A stretch of 64,000 nt of DNA from Laccaria trichodermophora (Eukaryota; Basidiomycota; Agaricomycetes; Agaricales; Hydnangiaceae), in contig JACTVC010000004.1 of the NCBI GenBank assembly GCA_018417955.1, forward strand, positions 310,001-374,000. The letters run 5' to 3'. The notes under the pieces were generated by a model. It was not told where the DNA came from. It did not search any database and worked only from the letters and a program-made list of their open reading frames with translations. A program made the translations under genes and the position numbers. Position 1 is the first letter of the stretch. Each line of letters opens with the position of its first letter. Below are positions 47,725 through 58,440 of the stretch, piece after piece.

Positions 47725-50700
47725 ATGGAATCTTCGATGCTGGAAAACGCTACCGGAACCAACATCTCTGGAAACGCACAGCTCGTTAACGGCGCTAACA
47801 ACGTCGTTAACAACATCGTTAACAACGTTCATGGCTCTCCGGCCCCTCCTGCCACAGGTATGTTAGGTTTTATATGAATTGTCCAATACTGTTAAATGGT
47901 TCATGGCATCTAGGACTTCCAGGCTTGCTTAGGCCTGTCAGCGACGCCACCCATACTCGCGCGGGTCACGTCGCTCGATGTGATCCTGGAACCCGCCTAG
48001 AGATCATCACTCAGATCAGGGAGTGGCTTAACGGCTCTGACAAACGAGCTGCGATCTGCTGGCTCAGTGGACCAGCTGGCTATGGGAAGTCGGCGGTGGC
48101 TCAAACTATCGCTGAGCGCTATGCCGCAAAGGGTCGTCTTCTAGGGTGCTTCTTCTTTCTTCGGGGGGCTGGTGAACGGAGTCACATATCTCGCTTGATT
48201 CCTACTCTTGCACATCAGATCTCCCTTTCTGTTCCTGGTGTTAAGCCTTTCCTTGAGAAGGCTCTTCGAGATGAGCCGGCCATCCTTGAGCCTTCTGTCT
48301 CTTTGGCTCACCAGTTTCAGAAGCTGATCATAGAACCCATCCATTCCACCACTTTCAATGTCCTCTCCAGTTTTGACATTTTCTCTTATTTTGCAAAGCA
48401 GAAGATCTTTGTTATTGATGCTCTTGATGAATGTAATGATAAGGCTGAAATGGCAGCCTTCATTGATGTTTTGCTCAATCCACTGCCAGGAGGGGGCTAT
48501 CTTCCTTTCCGAGTACTCCTTACCAGCAGGGTGGAGGAACACATTCGGAAAAAAATTGTGCATGCTAAGGCTCAATTTTTGTACCATCTGGACTTGGGGA
48601 ATTTTGATGCTCATCCAGACATTCAGGTATACTTCAAAAGGGAGTTTGCTCGTGTCTTGGATGAGAATTGTCAAATGATGCAGAGGATACCAAAGCCCTG
48701 GCCATCAGCTGGAGATCTTACTAAACTCCTTGACAAGGCTGGCAGCTCATTTGCATTTGCTATGACTTTAATCCAGTTTGTTGGAGGAGCTTCCATGCCA
48801 CACAAAGCATTGCAACAACTTTTGGAATCTGGAGCTGATGGTCTGGATCCACTCTATAAACAAGTTCTTTCCTCTGCTTCTGGGACAGCAGCTCTTCATC
48901 AGATTCTTGGGACAATCATGATTCTTGAGGACAACCAATCTATTCCTTTTCTCAGTTCCCTCCTCAATCTTCAGCATGAGGAAGTTATTCTTCAGCTATT
49001 GGGGGTACAGTCAATTATCAAAATTCCAGGACATGATAATCAGCCCATTATGCTCTATCACACCTCTCTCCGAGATTTTTTGACCCTCAAATCACGATCA
49101 GGGCAATATTTCATTGATCCTCCTCTGCAGCACCTTTATCTGGCCATACACTGTTTGAGGCATCTGGCAGAAGACTTGGCAGAAGACTTTTTTGAGGGTC
49201 ATGTGGCCAAATATGCTTGCCTTAATTGGCCACACCATATTCTTCTAGGACTTCAAAAGGAGGCATTAAATGCAGATGAAACAATCATCACTTCTTTGGT
49301 AACTCTCATTGAAAATTTACTAACTTTTCAGGCTAAGAGATGGTATAACACCATGCTGACTGATGTTGAGAAGATGTTAGGCTGCCAGAGAGATGTAACA
49401 AATCTATTTCAAGTCAGTTATTGCAATTTTCAGATGGTATCACACTCTTAACATACCTAAGACATTGCAGAAGCCAATTGTTGCAAATAATGTGACCAAG
49501 ATATTTGGAGAAGTTATTGTTTTCTGGAATGTAAGAGTTTATAATCAGCAGATCTTCACTGTTTTATTGAGATCTTCCAACAGAGTGTATGTGATGGAAA
49601 AATAATGCTGCTCAAAAGTTAACCTTTAAAATAAATAGGAGGTATGTGAGAATAATTACTAACTAAATGGTATAAAATAAAATATTGACATTTTTTACAG
49701 AATGTAAGCTAAGACATAACAACATTTTATTGTTGTTGATAAAGCACAGGAAGTAAGAAGAAACAATTACCAAGCAAATCAGACTTTTATTCTTGTTGTT
49801 GGTTTTCTTGCAGAGTGTATGTCAACAAGTTGTTCCAGGTTTATATAACCTAATGGTTGTCATTAGTTTGTAGGCAATTATTTTGCATGATATGTGACAT
49901 CTTATCATCAGCTGTCCATTGCTTTCAGGGGGTAAGTAGTAACTGTTGATCCAGCTACTTATACAGCTAATGTCCTTGTTTGTAAATCCAGAAGGTAAGA
50001 TATAGTTTCTTCACATTGTCTCTATATACCTTTAAAAGATTTTTTTAGTGGGTAAGTGATGACAAACTTTCTGAAATAACTTGGTTCTGATTAAATTCTC
50101 TGTGTAACCTACCATTTCTTAGATAGTAAGTTGTTCCTCTATTGACTGCATCTGTTATTCACTGACCTTTCCTTTCCTTGTCCATTGATTGGGTAATCAT
50201 GATCTGCCTTTCTCATTTTAGAAAGTATGCTTGCTTGCATTTTATTTTGCAGTTATAAAAGATATACTTTGGCCATGTTGGTTTTAGAAGGTGAGTTAAG
50301 ATATCATTTACAATGCACTCTTCTGAGGATACATACTTTGGCAACAGAAAGTAAGTTGGCCTGGTTTTTAATGTGCACTCTTCTGGTGACAGAGGCTGTG
50401 GCCTGTCTTGTTTCAGAAGGTGAGTTGGCCTGGTTTTCAATGTACACACTTCTGATGACAGAGGCTGTGGCCTATCTTGTTTCAGTGGGTAAGTTGGCCT
50501 AGTTTTCAATGTGCATTCTTCTGGTGACAGAGACTGTGGCCTGTCTTGTTTCAGAATGTGAGTTGGCCTAGTTTTCAATGTGCACTCTTCTGGTGACAGA
50601 GACTGTGGCCTGTGCTGTTTTAGGGGGTGAGTTGGCCTGGTTTTCAATGTGCACTCTTCTGGTGACAGAGGCTGTGACCTGTCTTGTTTTAGGGGGTGAG

Positions 50701-52915
50701 TTGGCTTGGTTTTCAATGTGTACTCTTCAGGTGATAGAGACTGTGGCCTATCTTATTTCAGAGGGTGAGTTGGCCTGGTTTTCAATGTGCACTCTTCTGA
50801 TGACAGAGGCTGTGGCCTGTCTTGTTTCAGAAGGTGAGTTGGCCTGGTTTCCAATGTGCACTCTTCTGATGACAGAGGCTGTGGCCTGTCTTGTTTCAGA
50901 GGGTGAGTTAGCCTGCTTTCCAATGTGCACTCTTCTGATGACAGAGGCTGTGGTCTGTCTTGTTTCAGAGGGTGAGTTGGCCTGGTTTTCAATATGCACT
51001 CTTTTGATGACAAAGGTTGTGGCCTGTCTTGTTTCAGTTGGTGAGTTGGCCTGCTTTTTTATTTGCACTCTTCTGGTTACAGAGACTATGGCCTGTCTTG
51101 TTTTAGTTTGTGAGTTGGCCTGGTTTTCAATATACAGTCCTCTGGTGACAGAGGCTGTGGCCTGTCTTGTTTCAGAATGTGAGTTGGCCTTGTTTTTTAT
51201 GTGCACTCTTCTGGTGACAGAGACTGTGGCTTGTCTTGTTTCAGTCAGTGAGTTGGCCTGGTTTTCAATGTGCACTCTTCTGGTGATGGAGGCTGTGGCT
51301 TGTCTTGTTTCAGCTGGTGAGTTGGCCTGGTTTTCAATGTGCACTCTTCTGATGACAGAGGCTGTGGCCTATCTTGTTTCAGCTGGTGAGTTGGCCTGGT
51401 GTTTAATGTGCACTCTTCTGGTGACAGAGGCTGTGGCCTGTTTTGTTTTAGGGGGTGAGTTGGCCTGGTTTTCAATGTGCACTCTTCTGATGACAGAGGC
51501 TGTGGCCTGTCTTGTTTTAGGATGTGAGTTGGCCTGGTTTTCAATGTGCACTCTTCAGGTGACAGAGACTGTGGCCTTTCTTGTTTCAGTGGGTAAGTTG
51601 GCCTGGTTTTCAATGTGCACTCTTCTGGTGACAGAGACTGTGGCCTGTCTTGTTTCAGAATGTGAGTTGGCCTAGTTTTCAATGTGCACTCTTCTGATGA
51701 CAGAGGCTGTGGCCTGTCTTGTTTCAGAGGGTGAGTTGGCCTGGTGTTTAATGTGCACTCTTCTGGTGACTGAGATTGTGGCCTGTCTTGTTTCAGAGGG
51801 TGAGTCGTCCTGGTGTTTAATGTGCACTCTTCAGGTGACACAGATTTTGGCCTGTCTTGTTTTAGTTGGTGAGTTGGCCTGGTTTTCAATGTGCACTCTT
51901 CTGATGACAGAGGCTGTGGCCTGTCTTGTTTTAGGGGGTGAGTTGGCCTGGTTTTCAATGTGCACTCTTCTGATGACAGAGGCTGTGGCCTGTCTTGTTA
52001 TAGAATGTGAGTTGGCCTGGTTTTCAATGTGCACTCTTCAGGTGACAGAGACTGTGGCCTGTCTTGTTTTAGGATGTGAGTTGGCCTGGTTTCCAATGTG
52101 CACTCTTCTGGTGACAGAGACTGTGGCCTGTGTTGTTTTAGGGGGTGAGTTGGCCTGGTATTCAATGTGCACTCTTCTGGTAACATGGACTGTGGCCTGT
52201 CTTGTTTCAGAATGTGAGTTGGCCTGGTTTTTTATGTGCACTCTTCTGGTGACAGAGGCTGTGGCCTGTCTTATATCAGATGGTAAGTTGAGTTGCTCAT
52301 CTCATTTTCTCAATCCATCTTACTCACTGTTTTCTTCCACTTATTCTTTTCATTTGCAGAAAGTATGTTGTCTCTCCTGCATGTCTTGTGAGTTTTATCC
52401 AGTACCTTTAATTTATTCAATGTACATGTATTTTATCATTCTTCTTTATCAGATGATTCACCTCAAACCAATATCTACCAGCATGTTAGTTGTATTTCAG
52501 CACCTGTCAATCAAATCTATGACATGTCTGCTTTTCCTTTTTTTTAGGATGTAGGTTATCCATTTATTCCCATTTCCATCACCTGATATCACCTTTTTTC
52601 CTTCAGATTGTATGTTTTTATTTTCTGTTACAGAGGAATGCTCATATTTTGTAGCTTGTATGTCTTTCATTCATTTTCAGATTCTGGAACTTCCCCATTT
52701 CAACCATTCTTTTTGTTAGAATGTATGTATTTCCCCAAATTACTTGACCAGGTCACTTATTTCAGATATATAGTGGGCAAGTCAACTCCATTTTACATCA
52801 TTTAGAATCTTTGGTGTCATAGAATTCTCCAATTTCTAGAGGGTATGGTTTTTTTCTTGCTGTCAATGATCACTGAGCATTTCAAAATGTATAGAAAGAT
52901 ACGACAGAGCTATAG
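47725..52915 (+). CDS. NACHT/NLR-like NTPase with a tail encoded by 3-nt exons
   Basis: Normal exons are 47725-47857, 47914-49412 and 49471-49530 (phase 0 after the second). The N terminus is Asn-rich. NACHT motifs: GPAGYGKSA (97-105, Walker A), IFVIDALDEC (about 209-218, Walker B), LLTSRVE. Mushroom NLR-like proteins with this core are thought to act in non-self recognition. After FWN at 49530 the gene continues as 49 candidate exons of exactly 3 nt, none a stop codon, each framed by AG and GT. Start positions and codons before the regular array: 49584 agt, 49639 gag, 49701 aat, 49750 gaa, 49814 agt, 49867 ttt, 49929 ggg, 49992 aag, 50049 tgg, 50123 ata, 50222 aaa, 50288 aag, 50348 aaa; then 28 array codons; then 52360 aaa, 52482 cat, 52548 gat, 52607 att, 52655 ctt, 52720 aat, 52774 tgg (GC donor), 52840 agg. 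The terminal exon 52895-52915 encodes KDTTEL and stop. Total 53 exons, 619 aa. If splicing does not occur, translation stops at 49449-49451. Confidence 0.75.
50348..52282 (+). repeat. 69-bp array: 66-nt intron plus 3-nt exon, 28 perfect periods
   Basis: From the triplet at 50348 to that at 52280 every step is exactly 69 nt, with no indel in 1932 bp. Each unit is gtgagttggcctggttttca, then about 30 nt, then a pyrimidine-rich ctgtcttgtttcag, then a triplet. Triplets by start: 50417 aag, 50486 tgg, 50555 aat, 50624 ggg, 50693 ggg, 50762 agg, 50831 aag, 50900 agg, 50969 agg, 51038 ttg, 51107 ttt, 51176 aat, 51245 tca, 51314 ctg, 51383 ctg, 51452 ggg, 51521 gat, 51590 tgg, 51659 aat, 51728 agg, 51797 agg, 51866 ttg, 51935 ggg, 52004 aat, 52073 gat, 52142 ggg, 52211 aat, 52280 atg. 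The flanks differ at only a few positions per unit. Confidence 0.95.
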
Positions 52916-53927
52916 TTGTTTCATTGGAAAATATCAAGTTTTGTATGTAGTTATCTGCTCTATTTCTTCTTGTTCATCTCCATTCCCCTTAGTGGTTGAT
53001 ACATCCTCTATACCTATGATTCCTTTAACATCTCCATGATTGAGTTATATATACACAGAAAAGAAGCAAAATCTCTATGTACTCAGTGTCTGTTTCTGTT
53101 TACTGAGGTGTAGTTCTGCCCCAATTCTGCCCTAAATTTGGAAGCACACTCTAGTTATGTCTATTTACATGGTCTGTTGTTTTTTCCCTACAGAAAACAA
53201 TGCAGAGGAGAGGTAGAAGATATGGACCATGTCACGCTCTGCCAAGGAATCACCATTTGGACTTTGATGTATAAACACACAAACATGCTCCAGAGTAATG
53301 ATAGTATACACATTGCCATCAAGATATGTGTAAAACATACATGCAACCTCTTCCTTACCATCATCATCACACACTCTTTTCCTGTGTCCTCTCCATACTT
53401 AGACCTTCAGAATCATACACTCAGGAGTCAGTATATCTCTGCCTTGGTGCCTTTTCCTCTTTGAGTTTCCTTTTAGTGTTATCTATCTGCCAAAGTGACT
53501 CAAGTCAGTTCTCAGGTAATTTCAAGCTACCTAAGCCCATAAGTAATTTGTAGTTTTTCTGATGCAGGGTTTTCAAATGCCCTCTGATGCATTCCTGAGC
53601 TGAGAGGAGAGTCTGGGTGTTGTTGAATTTCTTGAGTTTATAAATTCAAATGACTAGCTTGCAACTACTTACAGTCCCATTTTTTAAAGAGCTCAGGGGG
53701 GATGTTGTGAAGAGTACTGCATTGGGCGTTGTAGAGACAAATGCCAGGCCCCAACATGTTCAGGCAAGTCACCCAGTACAGTCATTTGCATGTTTAATTG
53801 CCACTGTCAAATGCATTGAAAACTTGTTTGTTTGGCATGCATGACCATCAGTCTCACACCAAGACCTCAGCGCTCAGCTTTCACATGTTCTGCATTGCCA
53901 CCATTGTGCACCAGCAAACAACTGAAT
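52916..53927. other. 3' flank of the NLR gene, no gene recognised
   Basis: AT-rich sequence after the predicted stop. No further AG-NNN-GT chain is seen. 53654-53840 resembles 41655-41880 (gactagcttgcaactac, acagtcccattttt), an old shared fragment. Confidence 0.5.
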
Positions 53928-54167
53928 TCAAGAGTCTAGCCATTCATTAAGGAAAGAATATCCACAGTTGAGGATCCACCCCTCAGCCATCTCCAGTGTG
54001 AGTGATGCAGCTGCCTGGTGTATCAACCATGGCTGACATTCAGGGTTCACTGCCTCTGCTTTGTGATGACACAACCAGGCTTTGAGGAAATGGAAGGACT
54101 GCTCAATTGGATTGAAATCAGGGGAATAGGGTGGCAAGTAGACAAGTTTGGCCCCTGCAAGCATGTT

Positions 54168-54746
54168 TAGTGCTTGGAAGTCCAGTCCCAAGACTGCAAA
54201 AAGACTGCAACTGGACTGGACCAAGACTGCAAAAGACCGGATCTGCAGTCTTGGTCTTTCAGATTTGAGATCACAAGACAGCAAGGACCAGTTAATGTGG
54301 ACTGGCCTTGTCAGTTAAGACTGGTCTTTTGTACCTACATAATACCCCTTCAAAATGCACCTAAGATCATATTTTTAGGCCAAAAACTGACAAAGATATA
54401 TACAAAACTGTAAAATATTTCATGAAAATAGCAAATGTACCTTAGTATTTTTGTATATACATCAATTCTCAACATAATTTAATGTTCTTAAACTTGTTTA
54501 GAAGCTACAAATAATGTCAATAAACTTACCAACTCACAATTGCAAATTTAGTTGAAAAACCAGTCTTGAACTGGTTGTAACCAGTTTGGACCAAGACTGG
54601 TCCAAAGACAGAAAAAGACTGCAGTCTTGGTCTTTTCCAGTCCTGGTCCAGTCTTTTGAGGTTTTAGGAATTGTGTGGACTGGTCTTGGTCTCAGTCTTT
54701 TTGTTTTGGGCCAAGCAACCAGACTGGACTGGACTTTCAAGCACTA
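54168..54746. mobile_element. hAT-type non-autonomous element 1 (579 bp)
   Basis: Terminal inverted repeats TAGTGCTTGGAAGTCCAGTC and, on the other strand, TAGTGCTTGAAAGTCCAGTC. 8-bp target duplication agcatgtt at 54160-54167 and 54747-54754. The TAGNG termini and 8-bp duplication define hAT. Subterminal regions are packed with agactgcaaa/ggtcttgg-type motifs. No coding capacity. Inserted in the Tc1-like transposase. Confidence 0.93.
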
Positions 54747-54804
54747 AGCATGTTGATGGATAGCAAAAGCAGAAGAGAGATGTACATACCACATTCATCA
54801 ACAA

Positions 54805-55634
54805 TAGTGTTTAAAGGTCTGGTCCATAGGACCGAAAAAAACCGGTGGACCAAACTGAACCGGACCATGGACCAGTCTTTTTTTCAGTTGCAGTTGCCCA
54901 AATTTGGGGCTGGTCTGGTTGCCGGTTGCCTCATTTCAAAAATCTTTTAAAACCATTCAAAGACTGGTTTAAATCGGTTGCAACCGGTCTTTTGCGGTCC
55001 ATGGACCACACCCAAACCGATTCAGACTGGTTTTTTTGTGTATAATTTGTTGTACCAATATAAGCCATTTGTATCTCAATTATTATTACTCTAAAAAATA
55101 ACCTGGTTATATAGCATAGTAAGAAATATAAATACCCATCATTCCACCAATTTTTAAGAGATTTAATGAAGGTTTGACATAGCTATGACTGAAACCGAAT
55201 TACATCTCTTAAAGACTTGGGCAAAATGTAATGTGGCAACTGTAAATTATTTGATGCATACCACATATTGATAGATGGTGAGTATATTTTCATACTTAAA
55301 ATGTCAATATCCAAAAATTGAATCAAGCAAAATGATGAAAGTTTGAGTGAGTTAGAATTAAAGTCATTCTGGTACAAGTTGCACAAACAAGTAGTTGTGC
55401 TAAAATGGATTTGGTTATATCTTTCTCAGTTCCTAACCGTTTTTGATGAACCAAAAAGCCAATTAAAGGTAATAAATGTGGTTACAAGGCTACGTAATGC
55501 ACATGACCATTTAACCGGTCCTAGGTGGTCTGGTTTGGGTCCCTCAATATCTGGGTCAGTCCTAGACCAGTTGTGGTCCATGGTTGCCTGTTTTCGGGGC
55601 AAAAAACCGGACTGAACTGGACCTGCGAACACTA
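54805..55634. mobile_element. hAT-type non-autonomous element 2 (830 bp)
   Basis: Ends TAGTGTTTAAAGGTCTGGTC and, on the other strand, TAGTGTTCGCAGGTCCAGTT. 8-bp duplication atcaacaa at 54797-54804 and 55635-55642. Internal aaccggtctttt-type subterminal motifs. Inserted in the Tc1-like transposase, 50 bp from element 1. Confidence 0.92.
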
Positions 55635-56228
55635 ATCAACAATGATTCTACAGATTTCTTCATCATGGTGGATGGCACAGTTGTCAAGAATGACAATGCT
55701 GTGTGGGCCAGGATATGGGTTGAGCTTTGGAGCCTAAAGGAAATCAGTCTGGTTATTAGAAATGTACACAAACCTCACCAGCTCATTGAGAAATCCAATA
55801 AATATCTCCTTGTTGACCAGACCTTCAAAAATGTCAAGTGCTATGTACCCATCAGAAGTGAATGCAGGGAGAATATACTAATGTTGACCACAGAGAAAGA
55901 GAGTCCATCTAACACATGCCTGGCCCACCATAGCCCAACCTTCATCATGTCGATTGGTGTGATCATCAACACCAGCTTCATCCAACCAAACACAATATTC
56001 AGCCAGGATGTCCCCATGCTCTGCCTGCCAGCATGCACATACAAGCTCATTGTGCTTGATAGCCTCCCATGCGACCTTCTTGTGAGTGAGAGCAAGGTTT
56101 TTCAGAGCATGGGATACTGTTGAGAGGGAGACATCAATGTTATAATAAAGAAGTAGTCGTTCCTGGATCTCATCAAGATAGATGACTGGGGTTGCTTGGA
56201 TGGTGGAGGAAATGTAGTCCATATCTCC

Positions 56229-56778
56229 TAATGTTTAAAAGTCCAGTCTGGTCTGGTTTTTTGATGCCCCTGGGCTTTAACCATAACCATAACAGGTCTG
56301 CATTTTTCCCAGAAGTCAAAAGACTGAACCAGACTGCAAAAAGACCACAGACCACAGTTTTTTGCAGTCTATAGACTGGTCTTGGTCTTCTTCGGTTTTA
56401 ACTGGTTTAAGACTGGTTTTCTGGCCAATATTTTAATATTATGAATCAGTAAATTAGTTAACGTTTTTCGTAGCTTTAAAAAGAGCCCAAGAACGTTAAA
56501 TTCCGTTGAGAATTGGTGTTTCTATAAAAAAAGTCTTGTACATCTACTATTTTTAATGAAATTTTACATTTTCAACTATATCTTTGTCAATTCTGAACCA
56601 ATTAATACATTCTTGAGTGTGTTTTGAAGGGTATTTAGTGGGCTACAAAAAACCGGTCTTTTTGGAGTCTCTACTTCTCAAAAATGAAAAAACCAGACCA
56701 CAGGTTTAGTTTTTTGCAGTCTTGGTCTGGTCTGCTTATGGTCTTTTTCCAGTCATGAGACCAGACTTCCAAACACTA
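56229..56778. mobile_element. hAT-type non-autonomous element 3 (550 bp)
   Basis: Ends TAATGTTTAAAAGTCCAGTC and, on the other strand, TAGTGTTTGGAAGTCTGGTC. 8-bp duplication atatctcc at 56221-56228 and 56779-56786. Same family as elements 1 and 2, inserted in the same transposase. Confidence 0.92.
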
Positions 56779-56859
56779 ATATCTCCACTACTGAGTAAAC
56801 ATTGTCCACCATGCGATTGAGCAAAAGGGTTGTTGACAAGACCATAGTTGCGTTGAGAA

Positions 56860-58440
56860 GACCATGGCACGCAGGAGTGAGGAAAGTGCAATCAGATGCA
56901 CTGACAAGATGCGTGAACACCTAAACAACACACACACACACTAACACCTTAAAACACTTATCACCACAGGTATGTGCTCGGTGCTTCGAGTTCGGGTTCG
57001 TATGGTAAAAAGAATTACCACACTTATTTTGTTAGAACTTTAAGTAGAAGTTCGGGGAAACGGTTTTGTATATTTTATATCACTTGTCTAAGTCTAGTAG
57101 ACCTTTTGGAACAAAAGGTATTGTTTTTACGTGTGGGCACAAGTATAGAATTCGAAACTTAGTAGTCTTCGAAGGGAAACAGCTTTTATTGGGACTGTCT
57201 CAGTGTTCTGGGATTGCGTTCTAACTGTATACGAAGAAATGACAAGGAAACTGTGCTTTGTAGACTTTTGTAACTCCCTTGAGCTTTTATTATGCCTCTG
57301 ATTCGGTCCAAACTAGTCTTAAAGACTCTTCAAGCACACTCACTTGGATTCCTTGGTAATAGTAGAGAGCTCTCTGACTAATTGACGAGACAACCTTACA
57401 AAAGCTTTGTGATCCCCACTTAACACGCTGGTTCTGGGCACACATTACTTATGTCTGTGAAGAAAAGTCCTTAAATTGATTACAAACTTATACACTACCT
57501 CAGATGCTACTGGGAGTGCGACAGCTGGTTAACACGGGGGATAATTCCTTCCATTTCAGCTTGCGCGCATCCTCCTTTTATACTATTCTATGTTTTCTAT
57601 TTATATTTACATGTCCATGCGTTGTCCAGGAGGTCAGACGAATTAATACTGATTTTTAGTAAAGGTTTGAAGTGGCTCAATTGTGTGTGGCACAACTGAG
57701 CTGACTTCTTTTAAGTTTTCGTAGTGTTTTCTCTATTGTGGCGACACAACGCATCAGTATTGATGCGTACACAGGAATCGCCATAAACGGTTTTCACAAT
57801 CGGTTCAGCTGAGACAAACAGTCCGCTTAGTGATTTTTCTCTCTATTATTAGGTACTATGCCTGGGCCTCAGACCACATGGCAAATCGTTCATAGTTTTT
57901 CTCTTTTGGCAGACTTTGGAAGATTTCACGAAGCTTAGTTTTCTTGGGTCAATGATGCCATGATTTGTGATGTGTTGATGCGCATGATGTGTGATGCATG
58001 TGATGCATCTCTCCACATGACTTCTTGGATCATGCTTTGTAGCATGTGACCAAATGACTTCTCGCGTCAGGTACATGTCGAGTTTCTACGCTTGTGCGTT
58101 TATCTTTAGAATTAATATCTTTTATATCTTTTAATCCATAATAAGGTGAGACCCTGGTTTGGTGTAAACTCCAACACCCTGTGCAGGGGTGTCTTTACTC
58201 TAGGACACTCGGTAGTGTACTATTTCATGGTAGCATAGCCTTTTATTAGACTTCGAGTGTATTGAAGTGATTCAGTCATGAACCGACCGCAATTCCTACT
58301 GCCTAAGGCATGCACATTTCTCAGATGTAGACTTTAATTGACTAGACTGGGTTGCGTCTAACAATCCTTATGATCAATGTGACTGTATTTCTACTATAGG
58401 AGGTTTTATAGGAGAAATTGCTAAAATTCGCATTTTTACA
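56860..58440. mobile_element. unclassified insertion in the Tc1-like transposase
   Basis: About 1.5 kb separates the HTH-encoding piece from the rest of the transposase. It has a short (ac)n tract near 56925 and a TATA-like ttttatactattc near 57576, but no long frame and no ends that I could define. A solo LTR is possible; the boundaries are approximate. Confidence 0.4.

Follow-up and report, generated by a model that had tools for sequence, protein, structure and literature searches.

Can the tail of a protein be encoded one residue at a time, by exons that each consist of a single codon? The question is raised by a predicted NACHT gene on the forward strand of a 64,000-nucleotide (nt) stretch of the Laccaria trichodermophora genome (assembly GCA_018417955.1, contig JACTVC010000004.1, positions 310,001 to 374,000; hereafter the window, to which coordinates refer), where the last ordinary exon is followed by a chain of 49 triplets at 49584-52842, all preceded by AG; the donor dinucleotide is GT at 48 of them and GC at the remaining one. 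A first-pass annotation had described AG-NNN-GT recurring 49 times. Its number of triplets, their first and last positions (49584 and 52840), the intron lengths of 45-119 nt and the terminal exon at 52895 all stand, as do the absence of stops among the window's 49 triplets and a phase of 0 from end to end; the motif itself holds for 48 triplets and fails at the 48th (TGG, 52774), whose donor is GCAAGT. We put at roughly 0.86 the probability that the C-terminal tail of this NACHT gene is encoded by consecutive single-codon exons, a reading that rests on sequence comparison throughout.

The predicted tail has an ordered structure: a tandem array would be flanked by 12 codons at the start and 9 at the end, both stretches containing shared framework residues. 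The 5′ part (49584-50290), with introns outside the tandem array, has exons starting at 49584, 49639, 49701, 49750, 49814, 49867, 49929, 49992, 50049, 50123, 50222 and 50288, and its predicted peptide is SENESFGKWIKK. The variable array follows (50348-52279) with 28 units of 69 nt, each a 3-nt exon plus a 66-nt intron, rather than the 21 triplets first counted, and contributes 28 residues. The nine exons of the 3′ part (52280-52842; starts at 52280, 52360, 52482, 52548, 52607, 52655, 52720, 52774 and 52840) would add MKHDILNWR, and the terminal exon (52895-52915) KDTTEL and a stop.

The genome searched comprises 59 Mb, with the window contig labelled G000:C34. A 350-base-pair (bp) query spanning the chain start matched 23 genomic places, the window included, and 16 paralogous loci were fetched, 15 with chains and one (L024) truncated to 3 sites. 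Two distant relatives, L026 (61% identical) and L027 (52%), also carry chains, giving a family set of 19 loci examined, with L024 counted; no relatives were found in the viral contigs searched. With L009, L012, L024 and L026 (in which the parse stopped early) and L027 (23 triplets) set apart, the shortest parsed chain has 25 triplets (L020) and the longest 103 (L017), and the number of array units differs widely between loci. The GC donor of the window (52777-52782) is a family trait: a single AG-TGG-GCAAG is present in 16 of the 17 main-family loci (window counted) and absent from the truncated L024, and the motif is found three times in L027 and not at all in L026. The L026 unit is 66 nt long and sits between framework codons, as the 69-nt array does, and is diverged but related to the 69-nt unit (65-73% identical over long stretches).

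The 3-nt chain did not originate by chance. When 18 loci (the window gene and 17 relatives) were parsed with exons allowed any length from 1 to 40 nt and 3 nt not favoured, 603 of 664 internal exons were exactly 3 nt long. A count of acceptor-donor pairs that exceed set score thresholds, taken at spacings of 0-30 in the 19 family loci, gave the same picture, with 579 pairs at spacing 3 (67 without look-alikes) against at most 46 (17) at every other spacing, and 14 pairs at spacing 3 on the opposite strand. Across the genome, TTTCAG-N3-GTRAGT occurs 294 times vs 28 in a reversed control, while the N4 and N6 versions remain at background level (17 vs 23 and 19 vs 18, respectively), and two-step chains number 245 vs 0. 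Other donors give mixed excesses: the 3-nt pattern with GTGTGT occurs 104 times vs 30, many of them from one array on contig C6; TTTCTAG with GTGTGT occurs 46 times vs 4, nearly all on contigs C48 and C49; and GTATGT shows a slight excess only (110 vs 96). No 3-nt sites were found on either strand in the 3 kilobases (kb) downstream of each of three non-family NACHT genes, and a partial relative on C20 has 0 such sites on the sense strand and 3 on the other.

These controls bear on the proposal that the chain is a non-coding satellite or a decaying pseudogene that is splice-like by chance. Its surroundings are repeat-rich and strongly CpG-depleted, and NACHT exons are broken in some copies, but the specificity for the sense strand and for 3 nt, the near-invariant donors and acceptors and the conserved codons argue against it. 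We regard this explanation as very improbable, and a chance satellite is rejected on the controls.

The distant relative L027, on contig C1 and parsed apart from the 18-locus set, has a chain in the absence of any array. Its NACHT exon is 52% identical to that of the window and is followed by 29 introns, with 22 of 28 exons being 3 nt long, where 100 shuffles gave a mean of 2 introns and a maximum of 9. Its chain contains no tandem repeat (the best Tandem Repeats Finder row there is two copies of 15 nt) and no self-match, and it has no blastn match to the window chain at 1e-3. L027 thus also bears on a second alternative, in which the 69-bp units are read through as the 23-residue repeats of a tandem-repeat protein. 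Since 69 is divisible by three, one window frame has open runs of 367 and 292 codons, and a 72-nt array on C48 is open for 291 codons, this possibility has some initial appeal. However, TAG in three units interrupts the window frame, units of 68 and 70 nt (relatives), 71 nt (C6) and 70 nt (C49) are not divisible by three, the repeat-free L027 retains the chain, and the most variable position is the triplet, which in that frame is split between two codons. A read-through repeat protein, to which we assign the lowest probability of all, is rejected on the stops and the unit lengths.

The triplets themselves carry signs of translation. None of 659 triplets at the 19 loci is a stop, where about 50 would be expected from position-specific composition, although the nominal probability of this result is overstated because array copies are related and not independent. 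In the 5′ framework E and W are invariant in 16/16 aligned loci, and in the 3′ framework I, L and W are invariant in 15/15; one framework site uses eight codons, all of which code for A, V, T, I or L. Framework introns are 0.80-0.81 identical across aligned loci, and mean triplet identity in the 3′ framework is 0.85 vs 0.81 for introns. Of 678 parsed introns, 663 would introduce a stop or a frameshift if retained. The terminal exon reaches a frame-0 stop after 5-9 codons in 13 of 15 loci, and all 13 begin K/R-D/E-T, while at least one other frame is open for at least 37 codons in each; of the two exceptions, L013 runs 39 codons and L020 is open across the 40 codons read. From this pattern we infer that the chain is spliced and translated. 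The first-pass claim that the tail is built residue by residue thus gains support from comparative sequence evidence: the absence of stops, the invariant framework codons, the free-length parse and L027.

The same codon evidence must be set against recursive splicing, in which a long intron would be removed stepwise, with the triplets serving as landing points that are mostly lost from the mRNA. The close succession of acceptor and donor at each site is somewhat ratchet-like, and a protein search yields no spliced tail. A true ratchet point has a length of 0 nt, however, and spacing 0 is not enriched (34 pairs, 17 without look-alikes, vs 579 and 67 at spacing 3); with spacing 3 dominating over 0, zero-nt ratchet points are rejected. 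Nor would landing points require conserved codons, whereas here the framework codons are maintained and no stops occur. We consider recursive splicing unlikely, though the most plausible of the alternatives.

Several observations weigh against tails encoded by single-codon exons. Mean triplet identity in the 5′ framework is 0.77 vs 0.80 for introns, and framework conservation is confined to particular sites, with others variable. Searching proteins with the spliced tail gave zero matches, and it appears in none of the 120 listed of 387 protein relatives. The organism-named rows among those 120 NACHT relatives are from L. amethystina, and one L. amethystina gene model (P0002), the only one of the 120 with such a splice, splices exon 3 onto the chain's first acceptor before reading on. 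The branch-site motif YTRAY is found in 29 of 47 introns of L021, above all 200 shuffles (maximum 23), whereas it stays within the shuffle range in the window (19/49), L019 (13/27) and L027 (15/24) and falls below the shuffle mean in L017 (19/104). Several paralogues contain stops within exon 2, and some copies may therefore be inactive. In one set of units outside the family (70-nt units on C49) the triplet is barely more variable than the intron (0.248 vs 0.152 differences per site), and the hypervariability described next could be partly mutational, through local hypermutation.

Within the arrays, homogenised introns separate hypervariable codons. We compared 11 arrays of 5-59 units, two of them with just 5, after discarding units whose identity to the consensus fell below 70%. 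Difference per site, for which the random maximum is 0.75, is 0.61-0.73 in triplets vs 0.02-0.20 in the intron interior, such that array introns are 80-98% identical while triplets are near-random. Pairwise differences in the window array are 0.631 for the triplet and 0.103 for the intron interior, and the contrast is sharpest in L014, whose triplets differ by 67% and introns by 2%; comparable values come from the arrays on C48 (0.62 vs 0.10) and the 72-nt units on C49 (0.62 vs 0.18). Mean intron differences, given first for units that share a triplet and then for units whose triplets differ, are 6.2/5.8 in the window, 8.0/8.1 in L017 and 3.9/3.9 on C6, vs 2.2/3.0 in L023 and 1.7/3.2 in L018, indicating that linkage between triplet and intron is absent in three arrays and can be seen to some extent in the other two. 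Intron columns linked to the triplet at p<0.05 number 0/13 in the window, 2/32 in L017, 3/16 on C6, 0/4 in L023 and 5/7 in L018. We infer that recombination inside introns, together with selection for diverse codons, underlies this pattern. One unit, used as a query, has 317 genomic matches and, among the matches listed (about half), all lie inside fetched NACHT loci.

Base composition is also unusual. The ratio of observed to expected CpG, ~0.8-1.0 further upstream, drops to 0.0-0.1 within exon 2 and along the chain, with the desert spanning 48300-57000 of the window and the ratio still 0.27 over 54000-57000. It is 0.07 in the L026 chain, 0.02 in the L027 chain, 0.01 in the C6 array, 0.07 on C49 and 0.22 on C48, and 0.79-0.85 downstream of three control NACHT genes. 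The desert suggests long-standing CpG methylation. Only 1 of 659 triplets ends in C, a near-absence behind which CpG depletion may lie.

Similar arrays occur elsewhere in the genome. C49 contains a NACHT gene 25% identical to that of the window, followed by 98 sites that are mostly 70-72 nt apart, and C48 carries an open frame 79% identical to that of C49 over 218 residues, with 22 sites. The two loci (C49:97506-106123, L032/L034/L035; C48:142107-145414, L036) form a second, distant NACHT family whose arrays have different introns. On C6 (741900-746900, L025/L031), 70 sites rich in R, E, L and D, mostly 71 nt apart, lie 5′ of a large exon with no Pfam match above the cut-off, NACHT included; by eye, this array may begin after a short ATG exon. 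Across the C49, C48 and C6 arrays, 0 of 190 triplets are stops. As C49 was found via a small cluster of pattern matches, further arrays are probably still unseen.

How might such a tail be made, and what might it do? By intron definition, the spliceosome would excise the short introns in succession, leaving one residue per exon; removal would need to be sequential because 3-nt exons are too short for both splice neighbours simultaneously. Fungal short introns, such as those of 45-119 nt here, fit intron definition. Since the exons are all complete codons, the frame would be preserved however units were gained, lost, reordered or skipped. The intron may then be viewed as the homogenised spacer of a repeat, a counterpart of the protein scaffold in the WD40, ANK and TPR repeats of other fungal NOD-like receptors (NLRs), with the 3-nt codon as the hypervariable position; the combination of homogenised intron and hypervariable codon leads us to predict that the tail is a diversified recognition surface. 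We tentatively extend this to a machine for receptor diversification, a proposal we think may well be wrong, in which introns act as crossover handles that reassort codons in arrays of up to ~100 residues, optional in-frame skipping multiplies the products, and the design has repeatedly emerged or spread, here in no fewer than two NACHT families distant from each other plus one additional gene, and separately in truffles. If single-codon exons are used as predicted, tens to ~100 consecutive 3-nt exons per transcript would be an extreme test for the spliceosome. Fungal immune-like receptors would also have a hidden variable region that current protein predictions miss, as its absence from all 120 listed relatives implies, and strain-to-strain variation in repertoire would be directly measurable from the triplets.

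Upstream of the chain, the gene is predicted to begin with exon 1 (47725-47857, +), which runs from a start codon to a GTATGT donor and continues in frame into exons 2 and 3. Exon 2 (47914-49412, +) contains the NPHP3_N/NACHT domain and ends at the donor GTCAGT at 49413, a position that reads GTNAG[TC] in 17/17 aligned loci. Exon 3 (49471-49530, +) is 60 nt long, in phase 0 and aligned in 17 loci, with the donor GTAAGAG at 49531. The gene end that had been entertained at the stop at 49449-49451 finds no place in this model, as that stop needs the intron 49413-49470 to be retained. Joined in frame, exons 1-3 encode 564 residues with Pfam matches to NPHP3_N (E 2.9e-22) and NACHT (E 2.9e-08); no WD40, ANK or TPR repeat domain was found by Pfam in window exons 1-3 or four predicted tails, with zero ankyrin matches at E 0.001 in the former and E 1 in the latter.

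Some paralogues differ around exons 2 and 3. L014 and L018 carry an inverted copy of ~200 bp of the exon 2/exon 3 region, 77-78% identical, 3′ of the last microexon, which could pair with exon 2/exon 3 around the chain in RNA; the 350-bp query search suggests further copies on C76. In L018 the acceptor of the intron before exon 3 has changed from CAG to CAA, and the 60-nt stretch reads open in frame, as though the intron had been exonised; L016 and L022, C76 paralogues like L018, have similar letters at this intron. Just 3′ of the window gene lies an open frame (53928-54314, -) which we take to resemble a DDE transposase.

The closest known system is found in truffles. The microexons of the Tuber melanosporum nank genes reportedly go back to Iotti et al. 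2012 (Fungal Biol 116:261). Like the Laccaria genes, they encode NACHT proteins, belong to an expanded family and have 3-bp exons by the tens, which here are seen as sequence only. Three later papers (PMC4986451, PMC3689799, PMC10197012, citing Iotti et al. 2012) state that in Tuber melanosporum the alternative splicing of 3-bp, codon-sized microexons diversifies NACHT-ANK genes or the sensor domains of NLRs, which contradicts the first-pass statement that no such gene had been described; NLRs with codon-sized exons are a kind already known. The systems differ in that Tuber is an ascomycete with an ankyrin domain and reported alternative splicing, whereas the present case is a basidiomycete with no ankyrin match and predicted splicing.

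Fungal NLRs of the HET-E/HET-D type, as described in PMC4986451, belong to the same receptor class and combine concerted repeats with a few hypervariable recognition-surface positions, but their conserved part is a translated scaffold, while in the Laccaria chain the corresponding part is predicted to be removed by splicing, with the variable codon alone staying. The same paper reports that in Laccaria bicolor as many as 58% of NLR C-terminal repeats are highly conserved internally, which by analogy is the same evolutionary logic at the protein level. Schistosoma micro-exon genes also build variable proteins from serial short exons, although PMC10526429 gives exons of 3-81 bp, introns up to 5 kb and secreted proteins; the uniform 3-nt exons and 45-119-nt introns of the Laccaria chain do not match such mixed lengths and long introns. 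For an Arabidopsis 1-nt exon, sequential removal of neighbouring introns has been proposed, according to PMC4674806, and this stepwise removal at a tiny exon is shared with recursive splicing and with our model; those cases concern single exons or zero-length ratchet points, in contrast to chains of tens here. Introner elements are near-identical introns spread through a genome, with copies in unrelated genes; for the unit searched here, the matches listed (about half) all fall in the fetched NACHT loci. No report of codon-sized-exon NLR genes in Laccaria or another basidiomycete was found in the open-licence papers searched, and within the literature searched, what is new is the basidiomycete case, with homogenised introns separating hypervariable codons, up to ~100 in a row.

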